From: Herbiconiux moechotypicola
Lineage (GTDB): Bacteria; Actinomycetota; Actinomycetes; Actinomycetales; Microbacteriaceae
NCBI RefSeq assembly: GCF_024979255.1
Contig: NZ_JANLCN010000017.1
Location: 1 to 40,564 of the forward strand
DNA length: 40,564 nt
Direction: 5' to 3'
Shown here: one piece after another, positions 21,293-35,500 of the stretch
Numbering within the stretch: position 1 is the stretch's first letter
Layout of the letters: every line of letters begins with the position of its first letter
Notes under the pieces: generated by a model
Told to the model about the DNA's origin: nothing
Databases searched by the model: none
The model's input: the letters and a program-made list of their open reading frames with translations, nothing else
Made by a program: the position numbers and the translations under genes

Positions 21293-21367
21293 CGCACGCG
21301 GTCTCGAACGCTCCGTTTATCAGCTATCCTTGTTGAGGCCTCGGCCGCGAAGGCGGTCATCCATTTT

Positions 21368-21441: not shown

Positions 21442-21446
21442 CAGCA

Positions 21447-21477: not shown

Positions 21478-21604
21478 CGTCGTCTGATACCCTCCATCAG
21501 GGTCTTCCCAGCCGACGCGCCGTGGTCATGCAACCTTCCGCAACCTCGTGGTCTTACGCTGTGGCCAACAGGCAGTAGCATCGCGGTATGACAAGGAGGT
21601 CATC

Positions 21605-21715
21605 GTGGAGCTCATCGGAGTTGCAGCACTCATCGGTACGGGTTGGTTCGTGAGCGCCACGGTGTTCGCCGTGGTCATCGGGAGGTCGATCAAGATCCGC
21701 GACCGCGTGCGCTGA
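21605..21715 (+). CDS. 36-residue membrane peptide, unknown function
   Basis: GTG start at 21605 behind a near-perfect AAGGAGG at five bases. The peptide begins MELIGVAALIGTGWFVSA, continues with a hydrophobic TVFAVVIGR stretch and ends in a basic tail (SIKIRDRVR). It is therefore one membrane helix with a positive C-terminus on the cytoplasmic side. The strong ribosome binding site and clean topology support a real gene despite its size. Three 8-bp AGCCGCGG repeats (21715-21738) follow the stop directly. Confidence 0.65.
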   Translation: MELIGVAALIGTGWFVSATVFAVVIGRSIKIRDRVR

Positions 21716-21738
21716 GCCGCGGAGCCGCGGAGCCGCGG
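21715..21738. repeat. Three tandem 8-bp repeats
   Basis: AGCCGCGG is repeated three times without mismatch and begins within the stop codon of the 36-residue peptide. Each unit contains CCGCGG, so the run can fold back on itself. It is probably a slippage-prone spot before the convergent tdk gene. Confidence 0.7.
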
Positions 21739-21769
21739 AGCCCGAGCCTGCGCTGAACCGCAGAGCGGG

Positions 21770-22381
21770 CTACGGGCGGCCGAGCACGCCGCCCGACTCC
21801 TCGAGGTAGCACGATCCGCACAGTGACTCGTAGGTCACGTGCTCGCCGTCGATCGCCACCTGGTCGCCGTCGAAGACGTACCTGTCGCCGATGCGCCGGG
21901 CGTTGAAGATGGCCTTGCGGCCGCATCGGCAGATGGTCTTCAGCTCTTCGAGGCTGTGGGCGATCTCGAGCAGGCGGATGCTCCCCGGAAAGCCCTCCGT
22001 CTGGAAGTCGCTGCGGATGCCGTAGGCGAGCACCGGCACGTCATCGAGGATCGCGATGCGCAAGGCGTCGTCGACCTGGCTCGCGTTCAGGAACTGCGCC
22101 TCGTCGATCAGCAGGCAATGCACGTCTTCGCCCGTCCGGGCGCGCACGGCGGCCCTCCGCTCGGCGAACTCCTCACGCACCGAGGTGGTGGGCGCGATGA
22201 GGAAGTCGGCCTCCCGCGTCACCCCGAGGCGCGACACGATGCGCAGCTCGCCCTTCGTGTCGATCGCGGGCTTCGCGATGAGCACGCGCTGGCCGCGCTC
22301 TTCGTAGTTGTAGGCGGCCTGGAGCATCGCGGTGCTCTTGCCGCTGTTCATCGCTCCGAACCGGAAGTACAGTTTCGCCAC
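21770..22381 (-). CDS. tdk: Thymidine kinase (type II)
   Basis: 203 residues, normal for the small type II enzyme (thymidine + ATP to dTMP + ADP; pyrimidine salvage). P-loop GAMNSGKST at 9-17, Walker B DEAQF at 93-97 with the catalytic Glu94, and the lasso/zinc domain with C151, C153, C188 and C191. It ends near the 36-residue peptide in a convergent arrangement. The radical SAM gene ends only 9 bp upstream of its start and may share its transcript. Confidence 0.96.
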   Translation of the reverse strand: MAKLYFRFGAMNSGKSTAMLQAAYNYEERGQRVLIAKPAIDTKGELRIVSRLGVTREADFLIAPTTSVREEFAERRAAVRARTGEDVHCLLIDEAQFLNASQVDDALRIAILDDVPVLAYGIRSDFQTEGFPGSIRLLEIAHSLEELKTICRCGRKAIFNARRIGDRYVFDGDQVAIDGEHVTYESLCGSCYLEESGGVLGRP

Positions 22382-22390
22382 CCGATCACC

Positions 22391-23476
22391 CTAGAACAGC
22401 AGGGGCTGCGCGTCGGCCACGGGCCCGAAACTCGGCGGCGAGCCGCCGCTCCCGGGAGTGAGCGGCCCGAGCCCCTGGTCGACCGCTTCGGGCAGCACGT
22501 GCCCGGTGACCCCCACGGGGCGGCCTCGGTGCAGGCGGTGCTTTCTGATGAGGGGCCGGATGCGCTCGGCCAGCCAGTCGGTGTACTCCTTGGGCGCGTA
22601 GGTGCGGGCCCCGTAGAGCTTGCTGTACGCGGGCAGAAGCTCCGGATGCTCGCGGCCGAGCCAGGCGAAGAACCACTGCTTCACCCCCGGCTTGAGGTGG
22701 AGCGCCGAGTACACGACACTCGAGGCACCGGCGTCGGCGATGCGGCCGAGCGCATGGTCGAGCTGGTCGACACCGTCGGTGAGCAACGGCAGCACCGGCA
22801 TGAGGAACACCTGGCAGTCGAGCCCCTTCTCGCGCACCGCGCGCACGGTGGCCAGCCGCGCGGCCGTCGAGGGAGTGCCCGGCTCGATCGACTGCTGCAG
22901 CTCGTCGTCGTAGACGGCGATCGACAGGGCCAGGCTCACCGGCACCGTCTGGGCCGCGGCGGCGACGAGGTCGAGGTCACGGCGGAGGAGCGAACCCTTC
23001 GTGAGCACCGAGAACGGCGTACCCGACTCGGCCAGCGCGCCGAGCACGGACGGCATGAGCGCATAACGCCCCTCCGCCCGCTGATACGGGTCGGTGTTGG
23101 TGCCGAGCGCCACGGGCGGACGCTGCCATGACGGCCGGGCGAGCTCTCGGCGAAGCACCTCCCCCACGTTCACCTTCACCACGATCTGCTGATCGAAGTC
23201 GCGCCCCGCGTCGAGCTCGAGGTACTCGTGCGTGGGCCGGGCGAAGCAGTAGACGCAGGCGTGCGTGCACCCTCGATAGGGGTTGACCGTGTAGGCACCC
23301 GCCATCATGCGGCTCGCCGCCGACACGTGGTTGAGCGCACTCTTCGCGAGCACCTCGTGGAAGGTGATGCCGGCGAACTCCGGGGTCTGCACGCTCCGCA
23401 CGAGGTTGCTCAAGCGCGCCAGCCCGGGCAGGGCCGTCGCCGATTCTGCCTCGAGTGCCTGTGCCGTCCATCGCAT
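22391..23476 (-). CDS. Radical SAM protein of the Rv2578c family
   Basis: 361 residues. The 4Fe-4S cluster motif CxxxCxxC is C70, C74 and C77 in RGCTHACVYC, which binds S-adenosylmethionine for radical chemistry. NTDPYQ and VLTKG fit the Elp3/spore-photoproduct-lyase-like barrel. The family is annotated as Rv2578c radical SAM; its substrate is not known. The ATG has no ribosome binding site: it follows six bases after a -10-like TCGAAT. The promoter is overlapped by a palindrome that matches the actinobacterial LexA box except for one base. That points to DNA-damage control and a role in repair or nucleotide modification. Confidence 0.88.
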   Translation of the reverse strand: MRWTAQALEAESATALPGLARLSNLVRSVQTPEFAGITFHEVLAKSALNHVSAASRMMAGAYTVNPYRGCTHACVYCFARPTHEYLELDAGRDFDQQIVVKVNVGEVLRRELARPSWQRPPVALGTNTDPYQRAEGRYALMPSVLGALAESGTPFSVLTKGSLLRRDLDLVAAAAQTVPVSLALSIAVYDDELQQSIEPGTPSTAARLATVRAVREKGLDCQVFLMPVLPLLTDGVDQLDHALGRIADAGASSVVYSALHLKPGVKQWFFAWLGREHPELLPAYSKLYGARTYAPKEYTDWLAERIRPLIRKHRLHRGRPVGVTGHVLPEAVDQGLGPLTPGSGGSPPSFGPVADAQPLLF

Positions 23477-23477
23477 G

Positions 23478-23511
23478 CCGACATTCGAACACAGTTTCGA
23501 ATGTCGGTCAA
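23478..23511 (-). promoter_or_regulatory. LexA/SOS-box-like operator embedded in a leaderless promoter
   Basis: A perfect 12-bp inverted repeat (23478-23489 with 23496-23507, 6-base spacer) contains, on the coding strand, TCGAAACTGTGTTCGA. The actinobacterial SOS box is TCGAAC-N4-GTTCGA, so there is one mismatch. TTGACC (23506-23511) and TCGAAT (23483-23488) form a -35/-10 pair with a 17-base spacer. The expected transcription start is at the A of the ATG, so a bound repressor would cover the whole promoter and the mRNA would be leaderless. Confidence 0.7.
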
Positions 23512-23529
23512 GCCCGCGCGCGCCCCGCC

Positions 23530-23916
23530 TCAGCGCTCGTAGAGCTCCAGCGGCAGCCCGTCGGGGTCGGCGAAGAACATCATGGCCCTGCCGGTGTGCG
23601 GATCGGTGCGCAGCTCTTCGCAGGCGACGCCCTTGGCCACGAGTTCCTCCCGCGCATCCGCCACCGAGTCGACCTCGAAGGCGAGATGCCGAAGGCCGGT
23701 CGCCTCGGGTCGAGTAGGGCGGGCGGGCGGCGACGGGAACGAGAACAGCTCGATGAGGTACTCGCCGTTCAGGGCCAGGTCGCCCATCCACGAGTCACGC
23801 TCAGCCCGGTACACCTCGGCGAGGAGCGTGCATCCCAGCACGTCGAGATAGAAGGCCTTCGACCGTTCGTAGTCGGTGGCGATGACGGCGATGTGGTGCA
23901 CGCGATTCAGCTTCAC
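23530..23916 (-). CDS. VOC/glyoxalase-family protein (YaeR/GloA2-like)
   Basis: 128 residues from a GTG. Two beta-alpha-beta-beta-beta modules with metal ligands H8 (HHIAVIATD), E56 (YLIELFSFP), H77 (GLRHLAFEVD) and E124 (LPLELYE). The sequence closely follows E. coli YaeR as I recall it (same DSWMGDLALNG and IELFSFP..PARP blocks). YaeR is called a glyoxalase-I-like protein; its substrate is not settled. The gene runs toward the SOS-like promoter of the radical SAM gene, ending 19 bp before it. Confidence 0.88.
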   Translation of the reverse strand: MKLNRVHHIAVIATDYERSKAFYLDVLGCTLLAEVYRAERDSWMGDLALNGEYLIELFSFPSPPARPTRPEATGLRHLAFEVDSVADAREELVAKGVACEELRTDPHTGRAMMFFADPDGLPLELYER

Positions 23917-23953
23917 GGTGCGACCCTACCCGAGCCCCACCAGAATGAATTTA

Positions 23954-24131
23954 GCGGGATGAGAGGACCCGATACTCTCATCCCGCAAGGAAACACCTGC
24001 GAGCCCGTCGTGTTGAAGCCGTTACCCTTACGGCCACGACGGAGCGCGCGTTCGGCGTCCCCGTTGGCCTTACATTACACTCCCACAGCACTCCCAGAAA
24101 CGGGATTGCACGAACACGCCGGGCGTGCAAT
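23954..24131. other. Intergenic run of three inverted repeats
   Basis: Three hairpins lie in a row between divergent genes. First: GCGGGATGAGAG (23954-23965) with CTCTCATCCCGC (23975-23986), perfect, 9-base loop; on the minus strand it is followed by TAAATTCATT. Second: CCGTCGTG (24005-24012) and GCCGT (24018-24022) with ACGGC (24030-24034) and CACGACGG (24035-24042), a stem with a 5-base bulge. Third: ATTGCACG (24105-24112) with CGTGCAAT (24124-24131). Nothing in the region is clearly coding. A structured leader, a small RNA with its terminator, or operators are all possible. Confidence 0.45.
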
Positions 24132-24185
24132 GCACTCGCCTCGAAAGTTCTTCTGCCCGTAACAATCGGAGGCCCCGACCCGGAT

Positions 24186-24440
24186 ATGGTCACTGTCATG
24201 AATGAGATCGTGCTCCATCACCAGACAGAGACCATCGCCATTCTCATCGGTGAGAACGACGACCCGGAGACCGTGCGTCCCCTGGCCACCGTCTACCGCC
24301 TGAAAGACGGGTGGCACATGAAGCTCACCCACCGTCACGACCGCTTCGCCTGGTCGGGGCCGTTCGCCGCCCCCGAGGAGGCGATCCACCGCTACACCCC
24401 GGCCGACGTCACCGGCCCCCTGCAGCGCATCGCGGTCTGA
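24186..24440 (+). CDS. Small hypothetical protein
   Basis: 84 residues; a second in-frame ATG at 24198 would give 80 and may be the true start. GGAGG lies 14 bases before the first ATG and is badly spaced for both. The chain alternates strands (ETIAILIGEND, LATVYRLKDGWHMKLTH) with FAWSGPFAAPEEAIHRY near the end, which suggests a compact alpha/beta cytoplasmic protein. There is no signal peptide. I do not recognise a family. It ends 6 bp before the convergent acyltransferase gene. Confidence 0.7.
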   Translation: MVTVMNEIVLHHQTETIAILIGENDDPETVRPLATVYRLKDGWHMKLTHRHDRFAWSGPFAAPEEAIHRYTPADVTGPLQRIAV

Positions 24441-24446
24441 ACACCC

Positions 24447-25610
24447 TTACGGTCGCAGGTACCACCCGCGCCACCGGAACACGCACGCGACGGCGAGCCA
24501 GAACCCGAGCATCAGGATGCTCAGGCCCAGCTGAGGATCGCCGGTAACCGCCACGATCTCGGCGAGTCTCACCGCCGCCGTGCCACCGCCCTCCAGAGGG
24601 CGCGTGAGCACGCTCATGAGCGCGTGCGACCCGAAGTAGACCAGCAGCGAGTTGCGCCCCAGCGCCTCCAGCGGCCAGACCAGCGCCCGCAGCGGCGCCG
24701 ACAGCCGCGGGCGGTCGACGATCACGTGCGCAACGCCGAGCGCGACGACGGTGCCGGCCGCCACCCAGAGCGCGAACGGCGGGGTCCAGAGCCTCTTCAT
24801 CACGAGAGGGTGCACCGACCACACCGCTTCAGGGGCCGTCACCAGCACCCATCCGAGTAGGGCCATCGCGCACGCCGCTCCGAGCAACGACGGAAGATCG
24901 GCGACGGGCCCCGCCACCCGGCCTCCCCGCGCATCCCGACGCTCCCGCAGCCACAGCATCAGGTGCCCCGCGGTCGCCCCGGCCGACGCACTCACCAACG
25001 CCCCGAGCAGTGCCACCAGCCCCACCGGATCATGCCCGAACGCGCCCTGGTGGTACACGTGGGCGACCCCGAACACGAACGGATCGATCGCCCCGGAGGG
25101 ATTGCACTCCGGGGAGAGCACACCGCCTGCGCAGCCGGTCGCCCACACACCCTGGAGCGTCGCATCCGCCGCCCCGAGCACGACCGTCACGATCGCCCAG
25201 CCCCACCATCGGCGGGTCACCAGGTGCAGCAGGGCGAGCACGGCCACGACCCCGGCATAGAGCTGCAGCACGCCGGTCAGCCACCAGTCGCCCAGGCTCC
25301 ACGAGTTCATCGCGATCGCGTTGTACAGCAGCCCAGCCAGCACGAGCACCAGCACCCGGCGCGTCATCGGCCACGCCGGCACCCGGCGATGCATCGCGAA
25401 CGCCAGCCCGCATCCGGTGAGCGTGACGAACACGGGGAACACCAGGTCGAGCGGGTGCACACCCTCCCACACCGTGTGCCCGAACCATTCCTTCTGAACG
25501 AGGAGCGTGTCGCTGACCACACTCGCCACGAGCATCACCCCGCGCACCACGTCGAGACTCCGGATGCGTGTGGCGGCAACAACGAAGGACACCGGGCGAG
25601 GATACCTCAT
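24447..25610 (-). CDS. Multi-pass membrane protein, heparan-alpha-glucosaminide acetyltransferase-like (DUF1624/DUF5009 type)
   Basis: 387 residues from the ATG at 25608-25610; a GTG at about 25592 is also possible. The N-terminus carries RIRSLDVVRGVMLVASV, the start signature of the family, followed by HPLDLVFPVFVTLTGCGLAF and about ten hydrophobic helices. ALGRNSLLVYFGSHALMSV near the C-terminus also matches acyltransferase-3/DUF1624 proteins. Such proteins move acyl groups across the membrane to sugars; the substrate here is not known. Divergent from the TetR gene at 25678, which may control it. It could also act on the cell wall or an exopolymer. Confidence 0.8.
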   Translation of the reverse strand: MRYPRPVSFVVAATRIRSLDVVRGVMLVASVVSDTLLVQKEWFGHTVWEGVHPLDLVFPVFVTLTGCGLAFAMHRRVPAWPMTRRVLVLVLAGLLYNAIAMNSWSLGDWWLTGVLQLYAGVVAVLALLHLVTRRWWGWAIVTVVLGAADATLQGVWATGCAGGVLSPECNPSGAIDPFVFGVAHVYHQGAFGHDPVGLVALLGALVSASAGATAGHLMLWLRERRDARGGRVAGPVADLPSLLGAACAMALLGWVLVTAPEAVWSVHPLVMKRLWTPPFALWVAAGTVVALGVAHVIVDRPRLSAPLRALVWPLEALGRNSLLVYFGSHALMSVLTRPLEGGGTAAVRLAEIVAVTGDPQLGLSILMLGFWLAVACVFRWRGWYLRP

Positions 25611-25677
25611 CTCTGCCGTCGGTTCGTGTCTGCTCCTCCCATTTCTCCCGCGGCGCGCCGACGAGTAGCGTGGTCGC

Positions 25678-26280
25678 ATGGGACGACGGCGCAGCTTCGA
25701 CGAGACGGCGCTGCTCGACCGAGCCCAGGAGCAGTTCTGGACCAACGGCTACGGCGACACCCGCCTCGAAGACATCGCGGCCGCATCCGGAGTCGGCAAC
25801 GGCAGCATCTACGCCGCCTACGGCAGCAAGCTCGGACTGTTCCTGGCCGTGTTCGGCCGCTACTGCGATCACCGCATCGAGCTCGTCGAGCACGCCGCTC
25901 ACGAGGCCGAGGGGTCGTTCGAGGAGGCCGTGGCCCACTTCCTCGACGTGATCGTGGCCGACTGCACCTCCTACGACGACCTGCGCGGGTGCCTCATGCT
26001 CAACAGCCTGACCGAGCTGGGAGCGAAGCACCCCGAGGTGGTGGCGATCGGCGCCCGCGCCAACGACCGGATGGAGCACAGCATCGGCACCCGGGTGCAG
26101 AGCGCCGTCGCCGACGGCGAGCTCGATCTCGAGCCGGCCGAGGTGCAGGTGCTGAGCGCGCACATCCTGCTGGTCTCGCAGGGACTGGTGAACCTCAGCA
26201 GGCTCGGGGTGCCGGCCGAACGGCTGCGCGCACTGGCACACACCTCGAGCCGCATGTCGGCGCTGCTCGGCGCCGCCTGA
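25678..26280 (+). CDS. TetR-family transcriptional regulator
   Basis: 200 residues. N-terminal helix-turn-helix with RLEDIAAASGVGNGSIYAAY (about 29-48), followed by GSKLGLFLAVFGRY, the usual end of the TetR DNA-binding domain. The C-terminal ligand domain is helical, with LRGCLMLNSLTELGA (about 102-116) resembling the AcrR/YcdC-type subset. It is divergent from the membrane acyltransferase and upstream of the alpha/beta hydrolase, both of which are possible targets. No clear palindrome was found in the 67-bp gap between the two starts. Confidence 0.9.
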   Translation: MGRRRSFDETALLDRAQEQFWTNGYGDTRLEDIAAASGVGNGSIYAAYGSKLGLFLAVFGRYCDHRIELVEHAAHEAEGSFEEAVAHFLDVIVADCTSYDDLRGCLMLNSLTELGAKHPEVVAIGARANDRMEHSIGTRVQSAVADGELDLEPAEVQVLSAHILLVSQGLVNLSRLGVPAERLRALAHTSSRMSALLGAA

Positions 26281-26390
26281 ACGGCAGACCCGCGACCGGC
26301 CGAGAGGGGCTGGAGCAGGGATACGACACCGGCACTCCCCCGGGCCGATGATGAGCGTGTCCCGTTCGCAGCGCCCACTGGAGAGACACG

Positions 26391-27212
26391 ATGCCGTACT
26401 TCACCACCTCCGACGGAACCGAGATCTACTACATCGACCAGGGCGCGGGTTCGCCGGTCGTGCTCAGCCACGGCTGGCCGCTGTCGTCAGACGCCTGGCA
26501 GCGGGAAGTGAAGCTCATCGCCGACGCCGGCTACCGCGCCATCGCGCACGACCGCCGGGGCCACGGCCGATCGTCGAAGACCTATGCCGGCAACGACATG
26601 GACACCTACGCCCGCGACCTCGCCGAGCTCATCGAGCACCTCGATCTGCACGACGTCGTGCTCATCGGCCACTCCACCGGCGGCGGCGAGGTGGTGCGCT
26701 ACGCCGCGCGGCACGGTGCCGGCCGCGTGAAGAAGCTGCTCACCGCGGGAGCGGTACCGCCCGTCATGGTGAGGTCGGAGTCGAACCCCGAGGGCACTCC
26801 GATCGAGGCCTTCGACGCCATTCGCGAGGGCGTGCTCGACGACGCGTCGCAGTTCTACCGCGACCTGGCGGCGCCCTTCTTCGGCGCGAACCGTGAGGGC
26901 GCGACTGTGTCGCAGGGGGCCGCGGACGACTTCTGGCGCCAGGGCATGCTGGTGAACCTCGCGGCGGCCTACGACTGCGTGAAGGCGTTCTCGGAGACCG
27001 ACTTCACCGACGATCTCACCTCGCTCGACGTGCCCATCCTGATCGCGCACGGCGACGACGACCAGATCGTGCCGATCGCGGCGGCCGCCGAGAAGACCAT
27101 CACCCTCGTGAAGAACGGCACCCTCAAGGTGTACCCCGGCGCGCCGCACGGCATCGCCGGCGATTATCAGAAGGCGCTCGACGCCGACATTCTCGCCTAT
27201 CTGGCCGAGTGA
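26391..27212 (+). CDS. Alpha/beta hydrolase, non-heme chloroperoxidase (arylesterase) type
   Basis: 273 residues with GGAGA seven bases before the ATG. HGWPLSSDAW (27-36) with the oxyanion turn, AHDRRGHGRS (52-61), nucleophile elbow GHSTGG with S95, Asp in HGDDDQIVP (D224) and H253 in GAPHGI. This is the signature of cofactor-free haloperoxidases and arylesterases, which hydrolyse esters and, with peracids, can halogenate. The physiological substrate is not evident. Its 3' end overlaps the convergent GlxA-type gene by 16 bp. Confidence 0.92.
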   Translation: MPYFTTSDGTEIYYIDQGAGSPVVLSHGWPLSSDAWQREVKLIADAGYRAIAHDRRGHGRSSKTYAGNDMDTYARDLAELIEHLDLHDVVLIGHSTGGGEVVRYAARHGAGRVKKLLTAGAVPPVMVRSESNPEGTPIEAFDAIREGVLDDASQFYRDLAAPFFGANREGATVSQGAADDFWRQGMLVNLAAAYDCVKAFSETDFTDDLTSLDVPILIAHGDDDQIVPIAAAAEKTITLVKNGTLKVYPGAPHGIAGDYQKALDADILAYLAE

Positions 27213-28183
27213 CGCCTGGTGGACTGGAACCGCCGCTGGTACTCCGACGGCGTCAGCGTGAACCGCGACCCGAAAGCGCGGCGGAAGGCGATCGGCGACC
27301 CGAAGCCCGCCCGCTGAGCGGCCTCGGTCACGCTCGACCCGGAATCGAGGTACGACACGGCGAGGTCGAGGCGCATGGAGGTGACATACTCCCGAGGCGT
27401 GGTCTGCAGTTCGTCGCGCATCACCCGTGTGAGGTGCCGCACGCTCACGTTGACCTCGGCGGCGAGCGCCGCTGCGGTGTGCGGCCGCGCTGGGTCGGCG
27501 TCGATCACCTCCGTGATGCGTTTCACGAGCGAGGTGCGCAGCGGCCTGCCCCGCAGCGACGCCGAGAACTGCGACTGGTTGCCCGATCGCTTCATGTAGA
27601 CCAGCAGCAACTGCGCCACCGAGCGGGCGATCTCGGGCCCGTGGTCGTCTTCGACCAAGGCTAGGGCGAGGTCGATGCCCGCCGCGACACCGGCCGACGT
27701 CGAGATGCGGCCGTCGATGGTGAAGATCGCTTCGGCCTCGACCGTGATCGACGGATGCGCGGCGGCGAGTTCGTCGGTGAACTTCCAGTGGGTGGTGGCA
27801 CGGCGGCCGTCGAGCAGGCCCGCCGCGGCGACGCCGAAGGCGCCCGTGCAGATGGCGGCCGTGCGGCGGGAGCGGCCGTCGAGCATCCGGATCGCCTCCA
27901 CCACGCGGGCGTCGGCGAACACGCTGAGCGGCGCCTCGGTGCCCGGCACGATGAGGGTGTCGAGACGGCCCGCGTCTGCGGCCGAGGCCTGCACGCCGAC
28001 ACGCACCCCCATCGAGCTCGTCACCTCGCGCCCGTCGGGCGAGATCATGACGATCTCGTAGCCACCCGAGCGCTGCCCCGCCTCCAGGAAGACCTCGGCC
28101 GGCCCCACGAAGTCGAGCATCTTCACGCCGTCGAAGAGCAGCACACCGATGCGTGGGCGCTCTTCGTGACTCCGGTTGCGCAT
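27197..28183 (-). CDS. GlxA-family transcriptional regulator (DJ-1/PfpI domain + AraC helix-turn-helix)
   Basis: 328 residues with GAGGGGG upstream of the ATG. Residues 10-200 form a class I glutamine-amidotransferase-like domain with IGVLLFDGVKMLDFVGP at the start and the nucleophile-elbow Cys C112 in AAICTGAFG. Residues about 215-325 are an AraC DNA-binding domain with two helix-turn-helix motifs: AAALAAEVNVSVRHLTRVM and TEAAQRAGFGSPIAFRRAF. The domain order is that of GlxA/FtrA regulators. The amidotransferase domain may sense a metabolite. It faces the chloroperoxidase gene tail-to-tail. Confidence 0.93.
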   Translation of the reverse strand: MRNRSHEERPRIGVLLFDGVKMLDFVGPAEVFLEAGQRSGGYEIVMISPDGREVTSSMGVRVGVQASAADAGRLDTLIVPGTEAPLSVFADARVVEAIRMLDGRSRRTAAICTGAFGVAAAGLLDGRRATTHWKFTDELAAAHPSITVEAEAIFTIDGRISTSAGVAAGIDLALALVEDDHGPEIARSVAQLLLVYMKRSGNQSQFSASLRGRPLRTSLVKRITEVIDADPARPHTAAALAAEVNVSVRHLTRVMRDELQTTPREYVTSMRLDLAVSYLDSGSSVTEAAQRAGFGSPIAFRRAFGSRFTLTPSEYQRRFQSTRRHSAR

Positions 28184-28286
28184 CCCGATGGCCCCCTCAT
28201 TCTGGATTGATCACTCCATTAAAGCATCCGGATGGGCGGAAGCGGTGCACGGGCTCGGTTAGGCTGAGGGGGTTCCAGCGAATCTC

Positions 28287-28730
28287 ATGGGGAGGATCGC
28301 GCAGCGACAGATCGTGGGGATGACCTTGTCGGCCGAGCACACCGAGTCCAACGCACCGTCACGCCGGGCGGTGCTCACCGCCGCGTGGACGGTGCCCGTC
28401 GTCGCACTCGCGGCGGCCGCACCCCACGCCGCCGCCAGTGGAGACACCCGACCCTACGTGGCCCAGACCGAGCTGTGGTGGGAGCGCGACAACAACCGCG
28501 GCCACTTCGAAGCGCGCGTGAGCGACCCTCCCGGGCCCGAGATCTTCGCCGAGTACATCACCTTCGACGACGACTCGATCTCGGTGAGCAACCTCTTCTA
28601 CGAGATCGACCAGGAGTTCTTCTTCTTCGACTTCGGCAGCAGCGCCGCCGACCCGCCGTACGAGTTCATCATGTACATCACGCTCCCCGGCTACCAGCCG
28701 TTCCAGGTGGAGGTCGTCGCCATCTGGTGA
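28287..28730 (+). CDS. Small secreted protein with RR..W..PV leader, unknown function (paralogue 1)
   Basis: 147 residues from the ATG at 28287; an ATG at 28320 would leave 136 and is equally possible. The leader reads SRRAVLTAAWTVPVVALA and ends at AAAS (about residue 51), a twin-arginine-like export signal. The mature part is about 95 residues, acidic and aromatic, with a striking DQEFFFFDFG segment, and ends in VEVVAIW. The predicted fold is beta-rich. The same leader occurs at 28900 and 37191, so this is one of three related secreted proteins. I do not recognise the mature domain. Confidence 0.75.
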   Translation: MGRIAQRQIVGMTLSAEHTESNAPSRRAVLTAAWTVPVVALAAAAPHAAASGDTRPYVAQTELWWERDNNRGHFEARVSDPPGPEIFAEYITFDDDSISVSNLFYEIDQEFFFFDFGSSAADPPYEFIMYITLPGYQPFQVEVVAIW

Positions 28731-28899
28731 GGGTGAAAGGCCGGGTGAAAACGGATGCTCGCGGCCAGAGCGCCGCCGCGTGCCCACCAGGCTGATCATG
28801 AGAGTTCTCTCACCCGGGGGTGACCCGCCTCCGGTTCCCGTCATCGCCGATCCTCTGTGCACACGCCGAGGTCGCGACACGCACAGGAGGAGCGCGTCC

Positions 28900-29472
28900 A
28901 TGGACGAACTGAACCAGACCCCGGTCTCTCCGGTCACCGATTCCCCGGTCACCGCCGAGAAGCACACCCTCACCCGCCGCCAGGTGGCCGTCGGCGCCGC
29001 TTGGGCCGCGCCGGTGATCGCCCTCGCGGTCGCCACCCCGCTGGCCGCCGCCTCGACCGGTCCGGTGTCGGAGCCGGCCGCCGCGATCAGCGGCGCGCTC
29101 AACGCGTCGTTCGCCGGCGGCGTGCGCACCGTCAACTACAGCGCGGGTGCCGTCACTTACGACCCCGACGGCAGCGGACTCACCACCGGCAACATCACGG
29201 TGGCGCTCTCGCTGTTCGGCGACAGCCCGAACTTCCCCCTCACCGTCGACAACGCCTCCTGGACGAGCCTCGGCTGGACCCGACTCTCCGACCGCAACGG
29301 CACCGCGCGCTTCCAGCACGCCGCCATCTCGAGCGGCACCATCCCCACCGGCACCGCTTCGTGGTCTGGCGCCGACTCGGACTACGTGAGCGTGGCCGTG
29401 AACCTCGCGGTCGCCCAGGCCGGCATCGGCGCCGTGGGCCTCACCTACACCTTCGACCCCGACGAGGGCTGA
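28900..29472 (+). CDS. Small secreted protein with RR..W..PVIA leader, unknown function (paralogue 2)
   Basis: 190 residues from the ATG at 28900, which has AGGAGGA eight bases upstream; longer readings are not supported. The leader is TRRQVAVGAAWAAPVIALA followed by AAAS (about residue 53). The mature part is rich in Ser, Thr, Asn and Gly, with repeated strand-like stretches (GALNASFAGGVRTVNYSAGA, VSVAVNLAVAQ) and ends in YTFDPDEG; it is predicted as a beta-sandwich. There are no cysteines. It follows paralogue 1 after 169 bp that contain two short palindromes (TGAGAG-TT-CTCTCA and TCACCC-GG-GGGTGA). Confidence 0.78.
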   Translation: MDELNQTPVSPVTDSPVTAEKHTLTRRQVAVGAAWAAPVIALAVATPLAAASTGPVSEPAAAISGALNASFAGGVRTVNYSAGAVTYDPDGSGLTTGNITVALSLFGDSPNFPLTVDNASWTSLGWTRLSDRNGTARFQHAAISSGTIPTGTASWSGADSDYVSVAVNLAVAQAGIGAVGLTYTFDPDEG

Positions 29473-29530
29473 TCCAGCTGCTCACCCGAGCATCCGTTCA
29501 TCGCCCGCCGTTCCCGCGCAGCATCCCCAT

Positions 29531-30478
29531 TCAGCGCGTGGAGCGGCGGGCGATGTCGTCGTGGGTGTAGGAGCCCTTGGGGTTGCGGCCCAGGCGGTCG
29601 CGTAGCGCGGCGACGATCACGCTACGGAGGTGCGCGGCCCGTCCGGCGCGGATCGTGCGGCCCTTCATCGTGTACGCGTCGAGCAGCGCCAACCGCGGTG
29701 CCCACACAGGGCGCACTCGGCGATTCACGATGCCGGCCGCCGCCGTGAGATGCAGGAAGGCCTGCGTGGTGCCGATGGCGCTCGCGAGGTCGACTCCCGG
29801 TGAGATCGACGGGAGCGACACGCTCGACCCGTCGGGCGCATCCGTCGTCATCGCGATGAGGCCCCGCAGATCGCTGTACGGCGGTATATAAGGAAGGAAC
29901 CGGGTGAAGTCGACCTTCGCCCGGGCGATCTCGTCGAGGGGCGCCGTCTCCGACAGGCCCATGAACCGCTCGAAGGTGTGGTGGCTGCGCGGATGGAACG
30001 CCGTCACCTGAGCGGCGAAGCCCACGTTCACCACGAGCACGTCGGGGATGCCGAGCCGGCGCGCGGTGCGGGCGATGGTGGTGCCGATCTCGGGATGCGT
30101 CGTCTCCGACTCGTCGAACACGAGCGTGGCCCCGGCCAGGAACTCGTCGACGTTGTCGACGGTCACGCCGTCGCGGTAGACGTGCACCACCGCGCGCGGG
30201 TTGATCTCGCGCACCTGCTCGCGGAACACGTCGGCCTTCGACCGGCCGTAGGTCGCCGTGGTGGCGCCGGGGACGCGGTTGGCGTTCTGCGGCTCGAAGT
30301 CTTCGGGATCGGCGATGCTGAAGCTCGACACGCCCATGCGCGCGAGCTTCGTGCCGACCTGGAAACCCACTCCCCCGACCCCGGCGATGGCGACTCGCGA
30401 GGAGATCAGCGCCTGCTGCTCGGCTTCGCTCCAGAAGCCGTAGTTGCGCGAGAACTCCGGGGAGTCGACGGACTTCAT
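29531..30478 (-). CDS. ThiF/E1-like adenylyltransferase without cysteines
   Basis: 315 residues. AIAGVGGVGF (30-39) is the E1 nucleotide loop, followed by SIADPEDFEPQNANRV (54-69) with the conserved acidic residues, Asn67 and Arg69, and GRSKAD (78-83) with Lys81. These bind ATP and the C-terminal carboxylate in MoeB/ThiF/UBA-type enzymes. The whole protein has no Cys, so it has neither the zinc CxxC pairs nor a thioester Cys. It can then only adenylate or activate a carboxylate for attack by another nucleophile, as MccB does. Its ATG overlaps the acyltransferase stop (ATGA), so the two are translationally coupled and probably act on one product. Confidence 0.85.
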   Translation of the reverse strand: MKSVDSPEFSRNYGFWSEAEQQALISSRVAIAGVGGVGFQVGTKLARMGVSSFSIADPEDFEPQNANRVPGATTATYGRSKADVFREQVREINPRAVVHVYRDGVTVDNVDEFLAGATLVFDESETTHPEIGTTIARTARRLGIPDVLVVNVGFAAQVTAFHPRSHHTFERFMGLSETAPLDEIARAKVDFTRFLPYIPPYSDLRGLIAMTTDAPDGSSVSLPSISPGVDLASAIGTTQAFLHLTAAAGIVNRRVRPVWAPRLALLDAYTMKGRTIRAGRAAHLRSVIVAALRDRLGRNPKGSYTHDDIARRSTR

Positions 30479-31323
30479 CCGCCCTCGGTGACGCTCTCGG
30501 GCTCAGCGGTCTCGAGCTCGGTGTCGGCTGCCGCCTCGGCGTCGGACGCCGCCGCCTCGCGCTGCTGGCGGGGGATGCGACCGAAGTACTCCAGCTCTCC
30601 GTCGGCGGCAGCGAGCTGGCCGAGGATGGTGGCGTTGCGCTCGGTGATGCGCGCCGCCGAGCCGGCGAGGTCGAACTCGACCGGCAGGTTGTAGTCGAGG
30701 TAGTGCTCGATGTAGCGGGGCTCTCCGATGCGGTCGATGGCGAGCACGCCGGCGAGGTGCCGCTCGAGCCACGGCTCGATGATGGCGAAGGTGCGCCCCA
30801 CATCGTGCGACGAGAAGTACGACGACATGAGGGCGAACAGGTGCCATTGCACGAGCTCCTGCATCGCCACCCGCTCGTGCCGGGAGATCATGCGCGACAC
30901 CTCGACGCTGCCCGGGGCCAGCGGATGCTCGGCGAAGAGCTCGGGACAGAAGTCTTCCACCGGGAGGGGGCGGTCTTCGCCGTCGGCTCCCTTGATGATG
31001 GTGCGGGCGACCCCCACGATGCGCACACCCTCCGGCGCGTTCTCGAGCACGGCAAACGTGACCGAGCGGGAATCGTCGTCATCACGGTCGAGGCCGTCGT
31101 CGGACAGGTCGGCGGGGTCGAGCTGGCCGGTCTGCTCCACGTAGACACGACGACGGAACTCGAAGTGCTCGCGGTAGACGGCCTCGAAGCCAGGACGGGC
31201 TACGCCGTTGACGCCGATGATGCCCGTGGCGAGGCGTGCTTCGGGTTCGGATGCGAACGCGGGTGACTCGGAGACGACGGGGATGACCGCAGCATTGGAG
31301 ACGGTGCGATCAATCCTCGACAC
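30475..31323 (-). CDS. Autoinducer-synthase-like (LuxI/FeeM-type GNAT) acyltransferase
   Basis: 282 residues from a GTG with a weak GAGAAAG upstream. The core (about 44-225) has the LuxI pattern: YREHFEFRRRVYVEQTG (50-66) with basic residues, an acidic DRDDDDSRS (79-87), VGVARTI with R107, F130 in DFCPELF, and E141-x-S-R144 in SVEVSRM. R107, F130, E141 and R144 fall at the order and near the spacing of the invariant R70, F84, E101 and R104 of LuxI. N-acyl amino-acid synthases (FeeM) and exosortase-linked acyltransferases share this layout. A Glu/Ala-rich tail ends the protein. It probably transfers an acyl chain from ACP or CoA to an amine. Coupled by ATGA to the E1-like gene. Confidence 0.72.
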   Translation of the reverse strand: MSRIDRTVSNAAVIPVVSESPAFASEPEARLATGIIGVNGVARPGFEAVYREHFEFRRRVYVEQTGQLDPADLSDDGLDRDDDDSRSVTFAVLENAPEGVRIVGVARTIIKGADGEDRPLPVEDFCPELFAEHPLAPGSVEVSRMISRHERVAMQELVQWHLFALMSSYFSSHDVGRTFAIIEPWLERHLAGVLAIDRIGEPRYIEHYLDYNLPVEFDLAGSAARITERNATILGQLAAADGELEYFGRIPRQQREAAASDAEAAADTELETAEPESVTEGG

Positions 31324-31482
31324 CGCACGGCTTTCTCGTGGCCGGAGTTCTCGTTTTCAGGCCCTTGCGCGCGACATTCCGGAGCACTCGCGATCCTCCG
31401 TTTTCAAGGGTAGATGGGGCCTCCGGCGCGTCCTCCTGACGAGCCCTGCCGTTGACCCGAGCATAGAAGCGCGGCTAGTCGT

Positions 31483-31511
31483 TTGCAACTTGGGACGCCT
31501 TGTCCCAAGAT
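31483..31511 (+). promoter_or_regulatory. Promoter and palindromic operator of the TetR gene
   Basis: CTTGGGAC (31489-31496) and GTCCCAAG (31502-31509) form a perfect 8-bp inverted repeat with a 5-base spacer. It lies between TTGCAA (31483-31488) and CAAGAT (31506-31511), a plausible -35/-10 pair with a 17-base spacer, and ends 21 bp before the TetR start codon. This is a standard place for autoregulation by a TetR protein. Since the acyltransferase is divergent, one site could control both directions. Confidence 0.65.
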
Positions 31512-31530
31512 AGTGTCGAGAGGGGCATGT

Positions 31531-32406
31531 ATGTCTGAGACCAACTGGGCGAAGTCGCCGACGCCACGTGTGCGCGTGCCCAAAGACGAGGAGCGTTCTG
31601 CCCTTCTGAACGCGGCCCTCGAGCATGTCGCGGCCGACGGCCTGACGGCCGGCTTCAGCCACCTCGAACTCGACGAGCTGGTGCGCGAGGCAGGTGTCTC
31701 CCGCAACGCCGTGAACCGCATCTGGGAGTCGAAGGACGACTTCTACAACGAGCTCCTCGGCGAGGTCGCGAACCAGGTCTCCCCCGGTCGCGCCGACGAG
31801 GAATCACTCATAGCCACGTGGGAATATCTCGGCTTCCGCGCCGACGAACTGCGCACCCCGGAGGGCCGTCGCCGCATCCTCGTCGACGTCATCGGCCTGG
31901 CCGCCGAGCAGAACTTCGAGTCGGTCACCTCGTCGGTGCAGTGGCGCACCTACGTGGCCCTGTCGTCGACCGCGAACTCCTACCCCGACGCCCGCCTGCG
32001 GGAGCGCATCATCGGCGCTCTGCGCGCCAGCGAGCTCGCCTTCCTCGACCAGATGGAGGTGTTCTACCGCAACATCGTGCCCGCGGTGGGGTACCGCCTC
32101 CGCCCCGACCTCAACGACGACTACCGCCCGCTCGTCGTGGCCGCCGCCGCCATCATCGAGGGCCTCGGCATCGCCCGCACCACCATCCCCGACCTGGTGG
32201 AGGCGCGCTACGACGTCGACAACGAGGGCCGCCCAGCCGAGGTGTCGCTGGCGGGCCTGTCGTACCACGCCATCATCACCGCGTTCATCGTGCCCGATCC
32301 GGCCTACGACGCCGAGGCGGCCATCGCCCGGCTCTCGGGCGGCATCGACGAGATGCCCGTGGTTCAGCCGCGCAGCCGCGACCTCGACGGACTCGCCGAC
32401 GACTGA
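31531..32406 (+). CDS. TetR-family regulator, divergent from the acyltransferase/E1 pair
   Basis: 291 residues from the ATG at 31531, with GAGAGGGG seven bases upstream; the reading that begins at 31483 would cover the operator and is rejected. The DNA-binding domain has HLELDELVREAGVSRNAVNR (about 45-64) followed by IWESKDDFYNELL, the helix-turn-helix and fourth helix of TetR proteins. The remaining 200 residues are helical and longer than usual for TetR, leaving room for a large or acylated ligand. The palindrome in its promoter suggests that it represses itself. It is the probable sensor of the pathway encoded by the neighbouring minus-strand pair. Confidence 0.86.
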   Translation: MSETNWAKSPTPRVRVPKDEERSALLNAALEHVAADGLTAGFSHLELDELVREAGVSRNAVNRIWESKDDFYNELLGEVANQVSPGRADEESLIATWEYLGFRADELRTPEGRRRILVDVIGLAAEQNFESVTSSVQWRTYVALSSTANSYPDARLRERIIGALRASELAFLDQMEVFYRNIVPAVGYRLRPDLNDDYRPLVVAAAAIIEGLGIARTTIPDLVEARYDVDNEGRPAEVSLAGLSYHAIITAFIVPDPAYDAEAAIARLSGGIDEMPVVQPRSRDLDGLADD

Positions 32407-32490: not shown

Positions 32491-32528
32491 GCGTCGCTCG
32501 ACGCCTGGGGGGAGCAGTCGAGCGATGC
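32491..32528 (+). terminator. Hairpin between TetR gene and the repeat protein
   Basis: A 12-bp stem with one G-T pair (32491-32502 with 32517-32528) closes a 14-base loop; the core is TCGCTCGAC/GTCGAGCGA. It lies 85 bp after the TetR stop and 75 bp before the next start. It could be the terminator of the regulator gene or part of the leader of the repeat protein. No T run follows. Confidence 0.45.
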
Positions 32529-32602
32529 GGTCGCCACCCACGATCGCCCGGGCTCCCTCCGCCCTGTGCCGCGTCTCCGCGGCCATCCGCAGAGGACCCG
32601 TC

Positions 32603-35500
32603 ATGAGCCCCGCCCCCCGTTCGCGCCGCCCGCTCCGCACCGCCCGCCTCACCGCGACGGCGCTGGCCACCACGGCCGCCCTCATCCTCACCCTCGCCAC
32701 GCCCGCCAACGCAGCCACCCCGGCACCCGCTCCTGAGCCCGTGCCCTCTGCCACCGCTACGCCGACCGCGACGCCGACCCCGACCCTGACGCCGACGCCG
32801 GCCCCGACAACCGCTCCCACAGCCAGTCCCACACCCACCCCCACCCGCACCCCCGGCGCCCCCGTCACCCCCCTCGCCACCCGCACCGAGATCGAACCCA
32901 ACGACACCCCCATCACCGCCACCGCCCTCCCGCTCGGCGACACCGTCACGGGCTCCGTCTTCACCGCCGGCCGCACCTACGAGTACGACTACTACGCCCT
33001 CGACATCCCCGCCGACGGCCGCCTCACCCTCGATCTCCGGTTCGATGAGAATCTCGGTGCCGGCAGCGCCTACACGCTCACCGTGCTCGACGACGCACGC
33101 AACTACCTCTACGACTACACGCTCGACGGCTACCAGTTCGACGGCAGCTTCCTGCGCGACCAGGCGACCTTCCTCGCTCAAGGCCGCTATTACGTGCAGT
33201 TGAGCGCACGCAACACCTGGGCGAGCTGGGGAAAGACCTACACCCTGACCGCGAGGAACTCCCCCGGTCTGGTCGAGACGGAGTTCAACAGCAACACCTC
33301 GTCGGCCGACGCCCTGCCGCTCGGCAAGACGCTCGGCGGTTCGTCGCTGGTGCACAGCACCTACGACTATGACTACTACGCCCTCGACGCCCCTGCCGCC
33401 GGCCGCCTCACTCTCGACTTCCGTTTCGACGGAGACCTCGGGGGCGGCTCCGCCTACGGCCTCACCGTGTACGACAGTTCGCAGAACTACCTCTACAGCT
33501 ACGACCTCGACGGCTTCGACTCCGACGGCAGCTTCCTGCGCGACCAGGCCACTTACGCGGCCAAGGGCCGCTACTACGTGCAGATCTACGGCCGCAACAC
33601 CTGGGCGAGCTGGTCCAAGCCGTACACCCTCGCCGCGCAGGTGACGCCCGGGCTGGTCGAGACCGAGCTGAACAACAATCGCGGCTCGGCCGACGCTCTG
33701 CCGCTCGGCAAGACGCTCGCGGGCTCCTCGCTCGCCCACGGCTCGTACGACTACGACTACTACGCGGTCGACGTCACGACCGCCGGCCGCCTGGGCATCG
33801 ATTTCCGCTTCGACAAGAATCTCGGGGGCGGCTCCGCCTACTCCCTCGCCGTCCTCGACGACGCGCAGAACTACCTCTACAGCTACGATCTCGACGGCTT
33901 CGACTCCGACGGCAGCTTCCTGCGCGACCAGGCCACCTTCGTGGCCAAGGGCCGCTACTACGTGCAGATCTTCGCCCGTAACAGCTGGGCCAGTTGGGGC
34001 AAGCCCTACTCGCTCACGCTCACCAACACGCCCGGCGCGGTCGAGACGGAATTCAACGACACCTCGAATTCCGCCGACGCGCTCCCCCTCGCCACCACCG
34101 TCACGGGTTCGAGCCTCATCCACCGCTCCTACGACCACGACTACTATGCCGTCGACCTCCCCGCCTCCGGCCGGGTCACGCTCGACTTCCGCTATCCCGC
34201 CGGCCTGGCTGGTGGAAGCGTCTACGAGTTCTGGGTCACAGGCCCCACCGGCGCGCAGCTCTTTTCCCACACGTTCTCCGGTACCGAATTCGGCGGAGCG
34301 AACGGCCAGTGGCTGCGCGGCCAGACCATCGAGCTGCCCCGTGGCCGCTCCGTCATCACGGTCTTCGCGCGGCAGAACTGGTCGAGCTGGGGCAAGCCGT
34401 ACAGTCTCACCGTCTCCTACCCGTGGAAGGCGACCCCCACCCCCACGATCTCCGGCACCGCGAAGGTGGGCAGCACCCTCACCGCGAAGCCCGGCACCTG
34501 GAACCCGTCACCCACTCTCAGCTACCAGTGGTTGCGGGGCGGCAAACCGATCTCAGGAGCCACCAAGCCGACGTACACGGCCACGGCGTCGGATGCGGGT
34601 GCCAAGCTGACCGTGTCGGTCACGGGCAAGAAGTCGGGCTACACCACCTCGACGAAGACGAGCGCGGCCGTCACCGTCGCCCCCGGCACCCTCACCGCCA
34701 CCCCGACCCCCACGGTCAAGGGCACCACGAAGGCGGGCAGCACCCTCACCGTCACCACCGGCACCTGGACGCCCGCACCTGTCACGCTGACCTACCAGTG
34801 GCTGAGGGGCGGCAAGCCCATCTCGGGCGCGACGAAGTCAAGCTACACGCTCACGACCACGGATGTGGGCACCGCGATCACCGTCACGGTCACGGGCCGC
34901 AAAGCCGGCTTCACCACCGTGACGAAGACGAGCGCGAAGCTCGCGATCCCGGTTCCGGCCCTCAGCGCCACACCCACCCCGAAGATCTCGGGCACCGCGA
35001 AAGCCGGCAGCACTCTCACGGCACAGCCGGGCACCTGGTCGCCCGCGCCGGTCTCACTCACCTACCAGTGGAGCCGCAACGGCAAGGCGATCACCGGTGC
35101 GACGAAGTCGACCTACAAGCTCACGACGGCGGATGCGGGAACCACGATCACGGTGACGGTCACGGGCAAGAAGGCCGGCTACGCCACCGCGAGCAAGACC
35201 AGCGCGAAGCTCGCGATCCCGCTCGGCACCCTGACCGCCACGCCCACCCCGAAGATCTCGGGCACCCCGAAGGTGGGCAGCACGCTCACGGCTCAGCCGG
35301 GCACGTGGTCGCCCGCGTCGGTGGCGTTGCGCTACCAGTGGTTCCGCAACGGCGTCACCATCTCGGGCGCGACGAAGTCGACCTACAAGGCCGCCACCGC
35401 CGACGTGGGCAAGAAGCTCACCGTCGTCGTGGTGGGCTCGAAGGCCGGTTACGCCACGGTGAAGAAGTCGAGCGCCGCGGTGACGGTGAAGGCGAAGTGA
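32603..35500 (+). CDS. Large secreted repeat protein: four PPC-like and four Ig-like domains
   Basis: 965 residues from the ATG at 32603 with AGAGGA upstream. Residues 1-38: signal peptide ending ANA. Residues 39-92: Thr/Pro/Ala-rich stalk of PTPTPT type. Residues about 95-606: four repeats of about 127 residues, each starting E.E.N...A.ALPLG and holding D.DYYA.D, SFLRDQA and W.SWGK.Y; these resemble bacterial pre-peptidase C-terminal (PPC) domains. Residues about 610-965: four Ig-like repeats with P.ISGT.KVGSTL, PGTW, YQW..G, I.GATKS.Y and GKK.GY. There is no LPXTG or other wall anchor and no catalytic motif. It is likely a surface or matrix protein. Its stop overlaps the lipoprotein start (TGATG). 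Confidence 0.85.
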   Translation: MSPAPRSRRPLRTARLTATALATTAALILTLATPANAATPAPAPEPVPSATATPTATPTPTLTPTPAPTTAPTASPTPTPTRTPGAPVTPLATRTEIEPNDTPITATALPLGDTVTGSVFTAGRTYEYDYYALDIPADGRLTLDLRFDENLGAGSAYTLTVLDDARNYLYDYTLDGYQFDGSFLRDQATFLAQGRYYVQLSARNTWASWGKTYTLTARNSPGLVETEFNSNTSSADALPLGKTLGGSSLVHSTYDYDYYALDAPAAGRLTLDFRFDGDLGGGSAYGLTVYDSSQNYLYSYDLDGFDSDGSFLRDQATYAAKGRYYVQIYGRNTWASWSKPYTLAAQVTPGLVETELNNNRGSADALPLGKTLAGSSLAHGSYDYDYYAVDVTTAGRLGIDFRFDKNLGGGSAYSLAVLDDAQNYLYSYDLDGFDSDGSFLRDQATFVAKGRYYVQIFARNSWASWGKPYSLTLTNTPGAVETEFNDTSNSADALPLATTVTGSSLIHRSYDHDYYAVDLPASGRVTLDFRYPAGLAGGSVYEFWVTGPTGAQLFSHTFSGTEFGGANGQWLRGQTIELPRGRSVITVFARQNWSSWGKPYSLTVSYPWKATPTPTISGTAKVGSTLTAKPGTWNPSPTLSYQWLRGGKPISGATKPTYTATASDAGAKLTVSVTGKKSGYTTSTKTSAAVTVAPGTLTATPTPTVKGTTKAGSTLTVTTGTWTPAPVTLTYQWLRGGKPISGATKSSYTLTTTDVGTAITVTVTGRKAGFTTVTKTSAKLAIPVPALSATPTPKISGTAKAGSTLTAQPGTWSPAPVSLTYQWSRNGKAITGATKSTYKLTTADAGTTITVTVTGKKAGYATASKTSAKLAIPLGTLTATPTPKISGTPKVGSTLTAQPGTWSPASVALRYQWFRNGVTISGATKSTYKAATADVGKKLTVVVVGSKAGYATVKKSSAAVTVKAK
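33481..33936 (+). repeat. Near-identical DNA repeat within the PPC-like domains
   Basis: The 72 bp at 33481-33552 recur at 33865-33936 (384 bp, or 128 codons, apart) with a single C/T difference, encoding the Q-N-Y-L-Y-S-Y...SFLRDQAT block of repeats 2 and 3. Repeats 1 and 4 are much less similar at DNA level. This indicates recent duplication or gene conversion between the second and third domains. Confidence 0.85.

Follow-up and report, generated by a model that had tools for sequence, protein, structure and literature searches.

In the OxzAB, TyzACB and TrzAS pathways a LuxI/FeeM-type N-acyltransferase acylates an amino acid, a ThiF-like enzyme closes the acylated amino acid into an oxazolone in an ATP-dependent reaction, and a flavin oxidase desaturates the oxazolone (PMC10404671 and PMC12856293, the OxzAB chemistry as cited within these two papers). 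According to computed annotation, the majority of ThiF nodes in two subclusters adjoin a gene for an oxidase, an acyltransferase or both (PMC12856293). Here we describe a related unit of three genes from Herbiconiux moechotypicola (genome of 4.28 Mb), located at positions 29531 to 32406 of a contig of 40,564 nucleotides, the whole of which we refer to as the window. It consists of an operon on the minus strand for an acyltransferase and a ThiF-like protein and of a divergent gene for a TetR-family regulator (Table 1). As in the three published pathways, a gene for an N-acyltransferase of the LuxI/FeeM fold adjoins a ThiF-like gene; in contrast to them, no flavin oxidase adjoins or is fused to ThiF in the flanks of the pair loci, and the divergent TetR gene has a predicted operator of its own. 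The original prediction for this locus, which was made from its letters alone, held that the pair makes an acylated and then activated small molecule. That scheme agrees with the published chemistry of TyzACB and TrzAS and with what is reported for OxzAB, and the chemistry is largely of a known kind, which the prediction had not recognised, as is the coupling of an acyltransferase to a ThiF-like enzyme.

We propose, with confidence that is evenly balanced, that the unit specifies a two-enzyme N-acyl amino acid pathway to a saturated oxazolone or a derivative of it, which is switched by TetR and whose product is probably a signal. In the first step the acyltransferase would N-acylate an amino acid. 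In the second the ThiF-like enzyme would adenylate the free carboxylate of the N-acyl amino acid; as ThiF lacks a conserved cysteine on which the adenylate could be captured, attack by the amide oxygen would follow, closing a saturated 2-alkyl-5(4H)-oxazolone, or else a nearby amine or alcohol would trap the adenylate. The locus has no gene for a flavin oxidase that could desaturate the ring, and the product is therefore expected to be distinct from the known oxazolones. Finally, the product or its precursor would bind TetR, free the operator and so feed back on synthesis, and the product would probably act as a signal, by comparison with acyl-homoserine lactone systems. What the sequences show is the order of the genes, the fold and catalytic residues, the linkage, a near-unique operator, the lack of an oxidase in the flanks examined and the sensor genes near relatives; the substrates, the ring closure, the ligand of TetR and the signalling role are inferred.

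Searches with the single sequence of the acyltransferase gave weak matches. It fell slightly under the cut-off of Pfam Acetyltransf_5 and, at 8e-09, under that of NCBIfam TIGR03694, and it had no match (E ≤1) to Pfam Autoind_synth or, in distinction from the FeeM N-acyl amino acid synthase, to Pfam FeeM. The acyltransferase of one relative (L088) exceeded the Autoind_synth cut-off (30.6 versus 24 bits). A profile of 13 diverse acyltransferase rows reached solved synthases (BjaI at 1e-11, TofI at 1e-09, and LasI, EsaI and RpaI as well); a 17-row profile from the family only reached BjaI at just 0.02. An AlphaFold model of the protein (mean pLDDT 92.9) was matched in Foldseek by LuxI-type synthases or FeeM in all of the best 18 rows, and the VIA values for the model were 18.6 with RpaI, 18.2 with BjaI and 15.3 with FeeM, with other GNAT enzymes at 14.6 and lower. 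The model and these comparisons thus bear out the LuxI/FeeM fold that had been claimed for the protein.

Eight residues of the acyltransferase (R57, Y61, D81, D84, R107, E141, S143 and R144) are invariant across 26 rows and align with conserved LuxI positions, and F130 is kept in 24 of the 26. R107, F130, E141 and R144, which had been singled out as standing in the order of an autoinducer synthase, are indeed at those positions, and all but F130 are among the invariant ones. The catalytic pattern of LuxI is R/F/D/D/R/E/R, relative to which the acyltransferase has Tyr instead of Phe at 61. Thus, the protein shares with the LuxI-type synthases RpaI and BjaI both the fold and a catalytic pattern of R, D, D, R, E, S and R, but it differs from them in having ThiF as a constant partner and in lacking the usual tryptophan in all 26 rows. 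The position of that tryptophan is filled by Gln in 17 rows (Gln67 in the window), Tyr in four, Met in three, Ile in one and Phe in one, an aromatic residue other than Trp hence being present in five. LuxI synthases are described as having a conserved tryptophan or other aromatic residue at this place (PMC7567580), and the absence of the tryptophan argues against synthesis of a homoserine lactone, an argument that draws in part on that remark.

We judge it very unlikely that the acyltransferase genuinely makes acyl-homoserine lactones, with ThiF unrelated to it in function. This has been proposed for 18 LuxI homologues of Patescibacteria phyla, which adjoin a sensory kinase and are predicted to make homoserine lactones (PMC7567580). 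The nearest folds to our model are likewise those of CoA-dependent synthases (RpaI, BjaI and MesI), but the tryptophan is never present in the 26 rows and matches of the FeeM type occur among the relatives. Moreover, a homoserine lactone synthase carries out its own ring closure without the help of an adenylating enzyme, yet ThiF adjoins the acyltransferase in all of the loci that were reached through the acyltransferase.

The ThiF-like protein has the nucleotide loop of E1 enzymes (GVGGVG, residues 33–38), and retains the residues expected at the ATP site for adenylation; R11, G33, G35, G36, G38, D57, N65, N67, R68, K81 and E125 are invariant in 13 diverse ThiF rows. Its description as cysteine-free is true of the window copy and of nine of the 17 family rows in all (alignment A1, which includes the window), but of just one of the 13 rows of the wider and more diverse alignment (A3). 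The fullest cysteine column is occupied in six rows of the former and five of the latter. All NCBIfam scores of the protein were under the curated cut-offs, and were highest for PRK08223 (161 bits) and for the ThiF parts of PRK14851 (112) and PRK14852 (94), followed by ThiF (67), TcdA (55), Rv1355c (50) and MoeB (49). TrzS-type proteins match PRK14851 and PRK14852 in their oxidase part too, and the two models therefore seem to describe ThiF-oxidase fusions.

Among solved proteins, the best sequence match was to TcdA (E 5.3e-15). MccB, which had been put forward as the precedent, has the E1 fold in common with the protein, as do PaaA, ThiF and UBA5, but it is a weaker match than TcdA or the ThiF parts of ThiF-oxidase proteins. 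TcdA, the cyclic t6A dehydratase, is an E1-like enzyme that cyclises a threonylcarbamoyl group in an ATP-dependent reaction (PMC4405576, PMC13139853), the ring being first described as an oxazolone and later shown to be a hydantoin (PMC13139853), and is by analogy a precedent for E1-driven cyclisation. Unlike the ThiF-like protein, it acts on tRNA and carries a loop with two cysteines of potential catalytic function (PMC4405576). The fold shared with MccB, PaaA, ThiF and UBA5 would also suit an enzyme that adenylates the C-terminus of a peptide or protein, by an MccB, ThiS or ubiquitin-like route, with the acyltransferase modifying the same peptide. We consider this highly improbable: ThiF has no well-conserved cysteine for a thioester or a sulfur relay, and the match to MccB is far weaker than that to TcdA (E 5e-03 versus 5e-15).

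Homologues of ThiF (E ≤1e-20) were present in 17 of 299 genomes of the host family, including six of the seven listed members of the genus. The acyltransferase gene adjoins ThiF in all 16 relatives, with an overlap of 4 nt at the junction in nine, an overlap of 1 nt in five and gaps of 4 and 11 nt in the remaining two (as measured from start codons picked by script), and TetR is present in every one but L040. In a set of 37 named loci, which overlaps the family set (ten contigs have the same length in both), the two genes are adjacent in 37, as judged with an acyltransferase profile to which nine of these loci had themselves contributed rows; with a narrower profile the figure was 36 of 37. 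TetR accompanies 28 of the named loci; the nine others comprise L071, which starts inside the acyltransferase gene, L100, which is from Rathayibacter, and seven loci not labelled Microbacteriaceae. The named loci take in Saccharibacteria metagenome-assembled genomes (43–49% GC), Acetobacterium dehalogenans and an Uhrbacteria metagenome-assembled genome. Linkage of the two genes, without which the original prediction was to be given up, thus extends well beyond a single genome. In Acetobacterium dehalogenans (L099, 4313–9902) two acyltransferase-ThiF pairs stand in tandem with an extra acyltransferase gene, and the second ThiF has Asn at the position of D122. L071, whose record is named 'Corynebacterium-like bacterium B27', sits within Herbiconiux in the ThiF tree, and its name may be wrong.

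No flavin oxidase domain was found in the fetched flanks (about 6–7 kb on each side where the contig permitted) of 16 family loci, 37 named loci or 20 loci from Patescibacteria. The loci were searched with a home-made profile, and the 17 family genomes with PF00881 and the Rv1355c model. In these 17 genomes the nearest PF00881 (nitroreductase) match on the same contig as ThiF was about 48 kb off, and in the window genome the Rv1355c model gave no oxidase-part match above 16 bits, the best being 15.2. We also built a tree of 82 ThiF rows, which includes TrzS and is without TyzB and OxzB. In it the window ThiF does not group with TrzS, though the NCBIfam scores favour PRK14851 and PRK14852, and on the basis of this tree, which covers TrzS alone of the known cyclases, we refrain from assigning the locus to the oxazolone family. 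Three TrzS-type ThiF-oxidase proteins (L110, L113 and L114) have about 230 extra N-terminal residues, possibly a fused acyltransferase; no NCBIfam model matched the N-terminal 229 residues of L110, and we do not call that stretch one. L116 (1750–2169) has a TrzS-like ThiF with no oxidase match in the fetched stretch and adjoins a GGDEF gene; its genome (G573) also has a TrzS fusion (L109).

Genes for sensors lie beside relatives of the unit in several lineages. A gene for a membrane GGDEF protein is arranged tail to tail with TetR in all 19 named loci from Agreia (six), Leucobacter (12, including two metagenome-assembled genomes) and Cryobacterium (one). The protein from L079 was checked and has GGDEF and EAL parts; the other 18 can be aligned with it along the greater part of the chain. 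The same GGDEF-EAL gene accompanies the unit both in Agreia and in Leucobacter and Cryobacterium, apparently at two different chromosomal sites. In Herbiconiux, a protein 43–47% identical to this sensor is encoded elsewhere in the genome. Beyond the family, a ThiF locus is near GGDEF-HD genes in three Actinomycetota of another family (L054–L056), and a GGDEF gene is nearby in six of 13 TrzS-type loci (L106–L118), in agreement with a remark on cyclic-di-GMP genes in PMC12856293. An open reading frame of 214 aa between the GGDEF gene and TetR (L092, 3496–4137) is kept in the Agreia loci and has no Pfam match.

Among Patescibacteria, members of the ThiF family (E ≤1e-25) were found in 21 of 332 genomes, including the centre genome, and the other 20 were compared. 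In 17 of these 20 loci ThiF has a histidine kinase gene of the same orientation no more than 4 kb away, as against 0.89 expected (P 2.5e-21, given between 2 and 10 genes for kinase-type ATPases in each genome and rounded genome sizes, with related genomes counted as independent). Two of the three loci without a kinase are at the ends of short contigs (L165 and L166). Among the named loci, a kinase gene is likewise present in L088, L095, L098 and L102, and the start of one in L105. One Patescibacteria locus (L171) passes the FeeM cut-off; below the cut-off, L158 matches FeeM and thermostable hemolysin, and L161 thermostable hemolysin. In L159 a methyltransferase gene stands in the place of the acyltransferase, between ThiF and the histidine kinase; L160, L162 and L163 have a methyltransferase there by sequence likeness only, and L160 and L163 have upstream a possible GNAT-like gene and a gene for a small membrane protein. 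The LuxI homologues beside sensory kinases in PMC7567580 resemble these loci in combining a synthase-like gene with a histidine kinase, but here ThiF is the shared part, which suggests another product. ThiF does not occur in the main text of that paper. The idea of a signal gains support because sensor genes adjoin relatives in other lineages; a signalling role is likely and, among single readings of these neighbourhoods, the best.

The 207-bp region between TetR and the acyltransferase gene contains the perfect inverted repeat CTTGGGAC-gcctt-GTCCCAAG, the predicted operator. On its own the repeat is only mildly unusual, as an arm of the same length arose in 71 of 2000 mononucleotide shuffles of the region. 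The pattern CTTGRGAC-N5-GTCYCAAR, which was drawn from the sites of seven Herbiconiux-type genomes (G026 together with six that belong to the genus), has a single place without mismatch in each of the seven, in every case between TetR and the acyltransferase gene, and none in four genomes that lack the locus. At one mismatch there were further places in three genomes (two in G093, one in G250 and one in G288). A near-unique place in each genome points to local control by TetR only. Perfect arms of at least 7 nt are present in three of the seven Herbiconiux-type sites, the other four missing this strict test, and at the operator position in none of the nine other TetR-bearing loci of the family. 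The hexamers TTGCAA and TATGCT are kept in all seven Herbiconiux-type rows, 17 or 18 nt apart; a promoter scan gave nothing over threshold, and the pair, with eight of 12 matches to consensus, is a possible promoter for the acyltransferase-ThiF operon.

The TetR protein itself is longer than is usual in its family. Its matches in Pfam and NCBIfam (E ≤1) are to general TetR models alone, and its structural model (pLDDT 80.3) is a loose match to solved TetR proteins (TM about 0.35). The 50 Foldseek rows listed were TetR-family or similar regulators, with E no better than 3e-3. In view of these whole-chain values we draw no conclusion on a ligand from this model; TetR may sense the product of the pathway.

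Several observations weigh against the proposed pathway and its signalling role. Producers of N-acyl tyrosines that carry ThiF genes were reported to show no acyl-oxazolone, and the role of their ThiF was called 'enigmatic' (PMC12479983). The window genome has three other nitroreductase genes, and in seven of the 17 family genomes a protein encoded elsewhere scores 28 to 89 bits against the oxidase part of Rv1355c, so that an oxidase could act in trans in those seven. D122 of ThiF is kept in 11 of the 13 wider rows and is Asn in two. In the tree the pair-type ThiFs do not join TrzS, which clusters with two other Acetobacterium ThiF proteins (support 98/96); the branch that contains the 52 pair-type and related rows is weakly supported (88/63) and leaves out four Patescibacteria rows. 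Linkage in Herbiconiux and Agreia, whose units occupy a common chromosomal site with genes for thymidine kinase and metallophosphoesterase nearby in both, represents one inheritance. As to the signal, a profile found the acyltransferase in only seven of the 20 Patescibacteria loci. Among nine outgroup-type ThiF loci without an acyltransferase match (L058–L066), four are flanked by a GGDEF gene, three of the four coming from a single family, and GGDEF neighbours hence do not single out the pair. No relationship was detectable by hhalign between the membrane parts of kinases, GGDEF-EAL and GGDEF-HD proteins of different lineages (probabilities below 1%). With one operator per genome, TetR need not govern a group behaviour. 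Finally, saturated oxazolones hydrolyse readily, which is awkward for a diffusible signal.

Alternatively, the chemistry may be the same and the product a protective or antimicrobial lipid rather than a signal, in which case TetR would be a feedback repressor of the usual kind, serving a small operon for a metabolite. The single zero-mismatch operator in each genome fits such a repressor. The Herbiconiux loci are without the kinds of sensor that were tested for, save for one response-regulator match 3.7 kb off in L074, and the neighbours they share (thymidine kinase and metallophosphoesterase) are not signalling genes. A connection of oxazolones with stress, and of N-acyl tyrosines with antimicrobial activity, has moreover been described (PMC12856293). 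We nevertheless regard a lipid of this kind as an unlikely, if serious, alternative: it leaves aside the same-strand histidine kinases within 4 kb of ThiF in 17 of 20 Patescibacteria loci, where 0.89 were expected, and the GGDEF-EAL gene that adjoins all 19 named loci of Agreia, Leucobacter and Cryobacterium.

If the product is a signal, a broader proposal suggests itself, which we offer tentatively and would sooner doubt than assert. The unit may belong to a widespread class in which the autoinducer synthase consists of a LuxI-like N-acyltransferase and an E1-like cyclase, the signal is an acyl-oxazolone or a derived N-acyl amino acid, and the receptors are specific to each lineage: TetR and a membrane GGDEF-EAL protein in Microbacteriaceae, GGDEF-HD proteins in other Actinomycetota, and membrane histidine kinases with response regulators in Patescibacteria. 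Saccharibacteria that live on Actinomycetota could then share the signal with them, and epibionts and actinobacteria would possibly have a chemical class in common. What is new here is the presence of the ThiF family beside histidine kinases of Patescibacteria and of pair loci beside cyclic-di-GMP enzymes in several Actinomycetota. In the literature that we searched there was no paper on oxidase-free LuxI-ThiF pairs as makers of signals, nor any account of ThiF as a constant partner or of the oxidase-free pair recurring with different sensors; a 2009 survey of E1 proteins by Burroughs and co-workers may touch on related operons. ThiF and TetR are not mentioned in PMC13136126, on homoserine lactones in Actinomycetota, nor LuxI, acyltransferases or autoinducers in PMC1779556. 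The proposal offers an alternative product for LuxI-like genes of Patescibacteria that were hitherto predicted to make homoserine lactones (PMC7567580), and the oxidase-free, minimal version in an environmental Herbiconiux, with its own TetR and a mapped predicted operator, makes the signal hypothesis testable by means of a reporter.

The coordinates of the unit are collected in Table 1. Each feature that the original prediction had described, namely the acyltransferase, the ThiF-like protein, the ATGA overlap, the TetR gene, the catalytic residues and the palindrome, was confirmed.

Table 1. Coordinates in the window of the genes and predicted control elements of the unit
Feature	Position	Strand	Evidence
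ThiF/E1-like gene, 315 aa, predicted carboxylate-adenylating enzyme or cyclase	29531..30478	-	Pfam ThiF 3.1e-29
LuxI/FeeM-fold N-acyltransferase gene, 282 aa, GTG start, predicted N-acyl amino acid synthase	30475..31323	-	
ATGA overlap of acyltransferase stop and ThiF start	30475..30478	-	sequence
Possible acyltransferase-ThiF promoter, TTGCAA (31488-31483), 17 nt, TATGCT (31465-31460)	31460..31488	-	inference from sequence
Perfect inverted repeat, predicted TetR operator	31489..31509	strandless	operator pattern and repeat search
TetR-family regulator gene, 291 aa, divergent	31531..32406	+	Pfam TetR_N 6.8e-07

Two other identities for the unit were considered. We make no claim of a defence system, the PADLOC matches being through the E1 domain only (E1-E2 models, best 3e-12), apart from one weak TetR match. 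As to a system of the gamma-butyrolactone type, none of the three proteins of the unit, to which the search was limited, matched an AfsA-like synthase or an ArpA-like receptor in Pfam or NCBIfam (E ≤1).

The genes that mark the chromosomal site shared by Herbiconiux and Agreia lie in the window at 17784–23492, 6–12 kb from the ThiF gene. Neighbours common to both genera and to the window speak against a mobile or free-standing unit for Herbiconiux and Agreia and indicate one old site. Comparison with the flanks of L032, L035, L037, L039, L040, L079, L084 and L086, which are from Leucobacter, Cryobacterium, Rathayibacter and kin, turned up none of the eight shared-site genes. Six neighbour genes in the window, when compared with the 16 relatives, gave a single match, to a short hydrolase fragment. 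The stretch at 23500–29500, which separates the unit from neighbours that other Herbiconiux and Agreia loci have nearer, carries genes that were not found in the 16 relatives and may be a local insertion in this genome. Within it, on the plus strand, 28287–28730 and 28780–29472 encode two small proteins with similar twin-arginine-like N-termini, which are probably tandem secreted paralogues. On the other side of the unit, a large open reading frame on the plus strand (32525–35500) specifies a protein with a signal-like N-terminus, four diverged D-Y-Y-A repeats and C-terminal Ig-like repeats, which is probably a surface protein.

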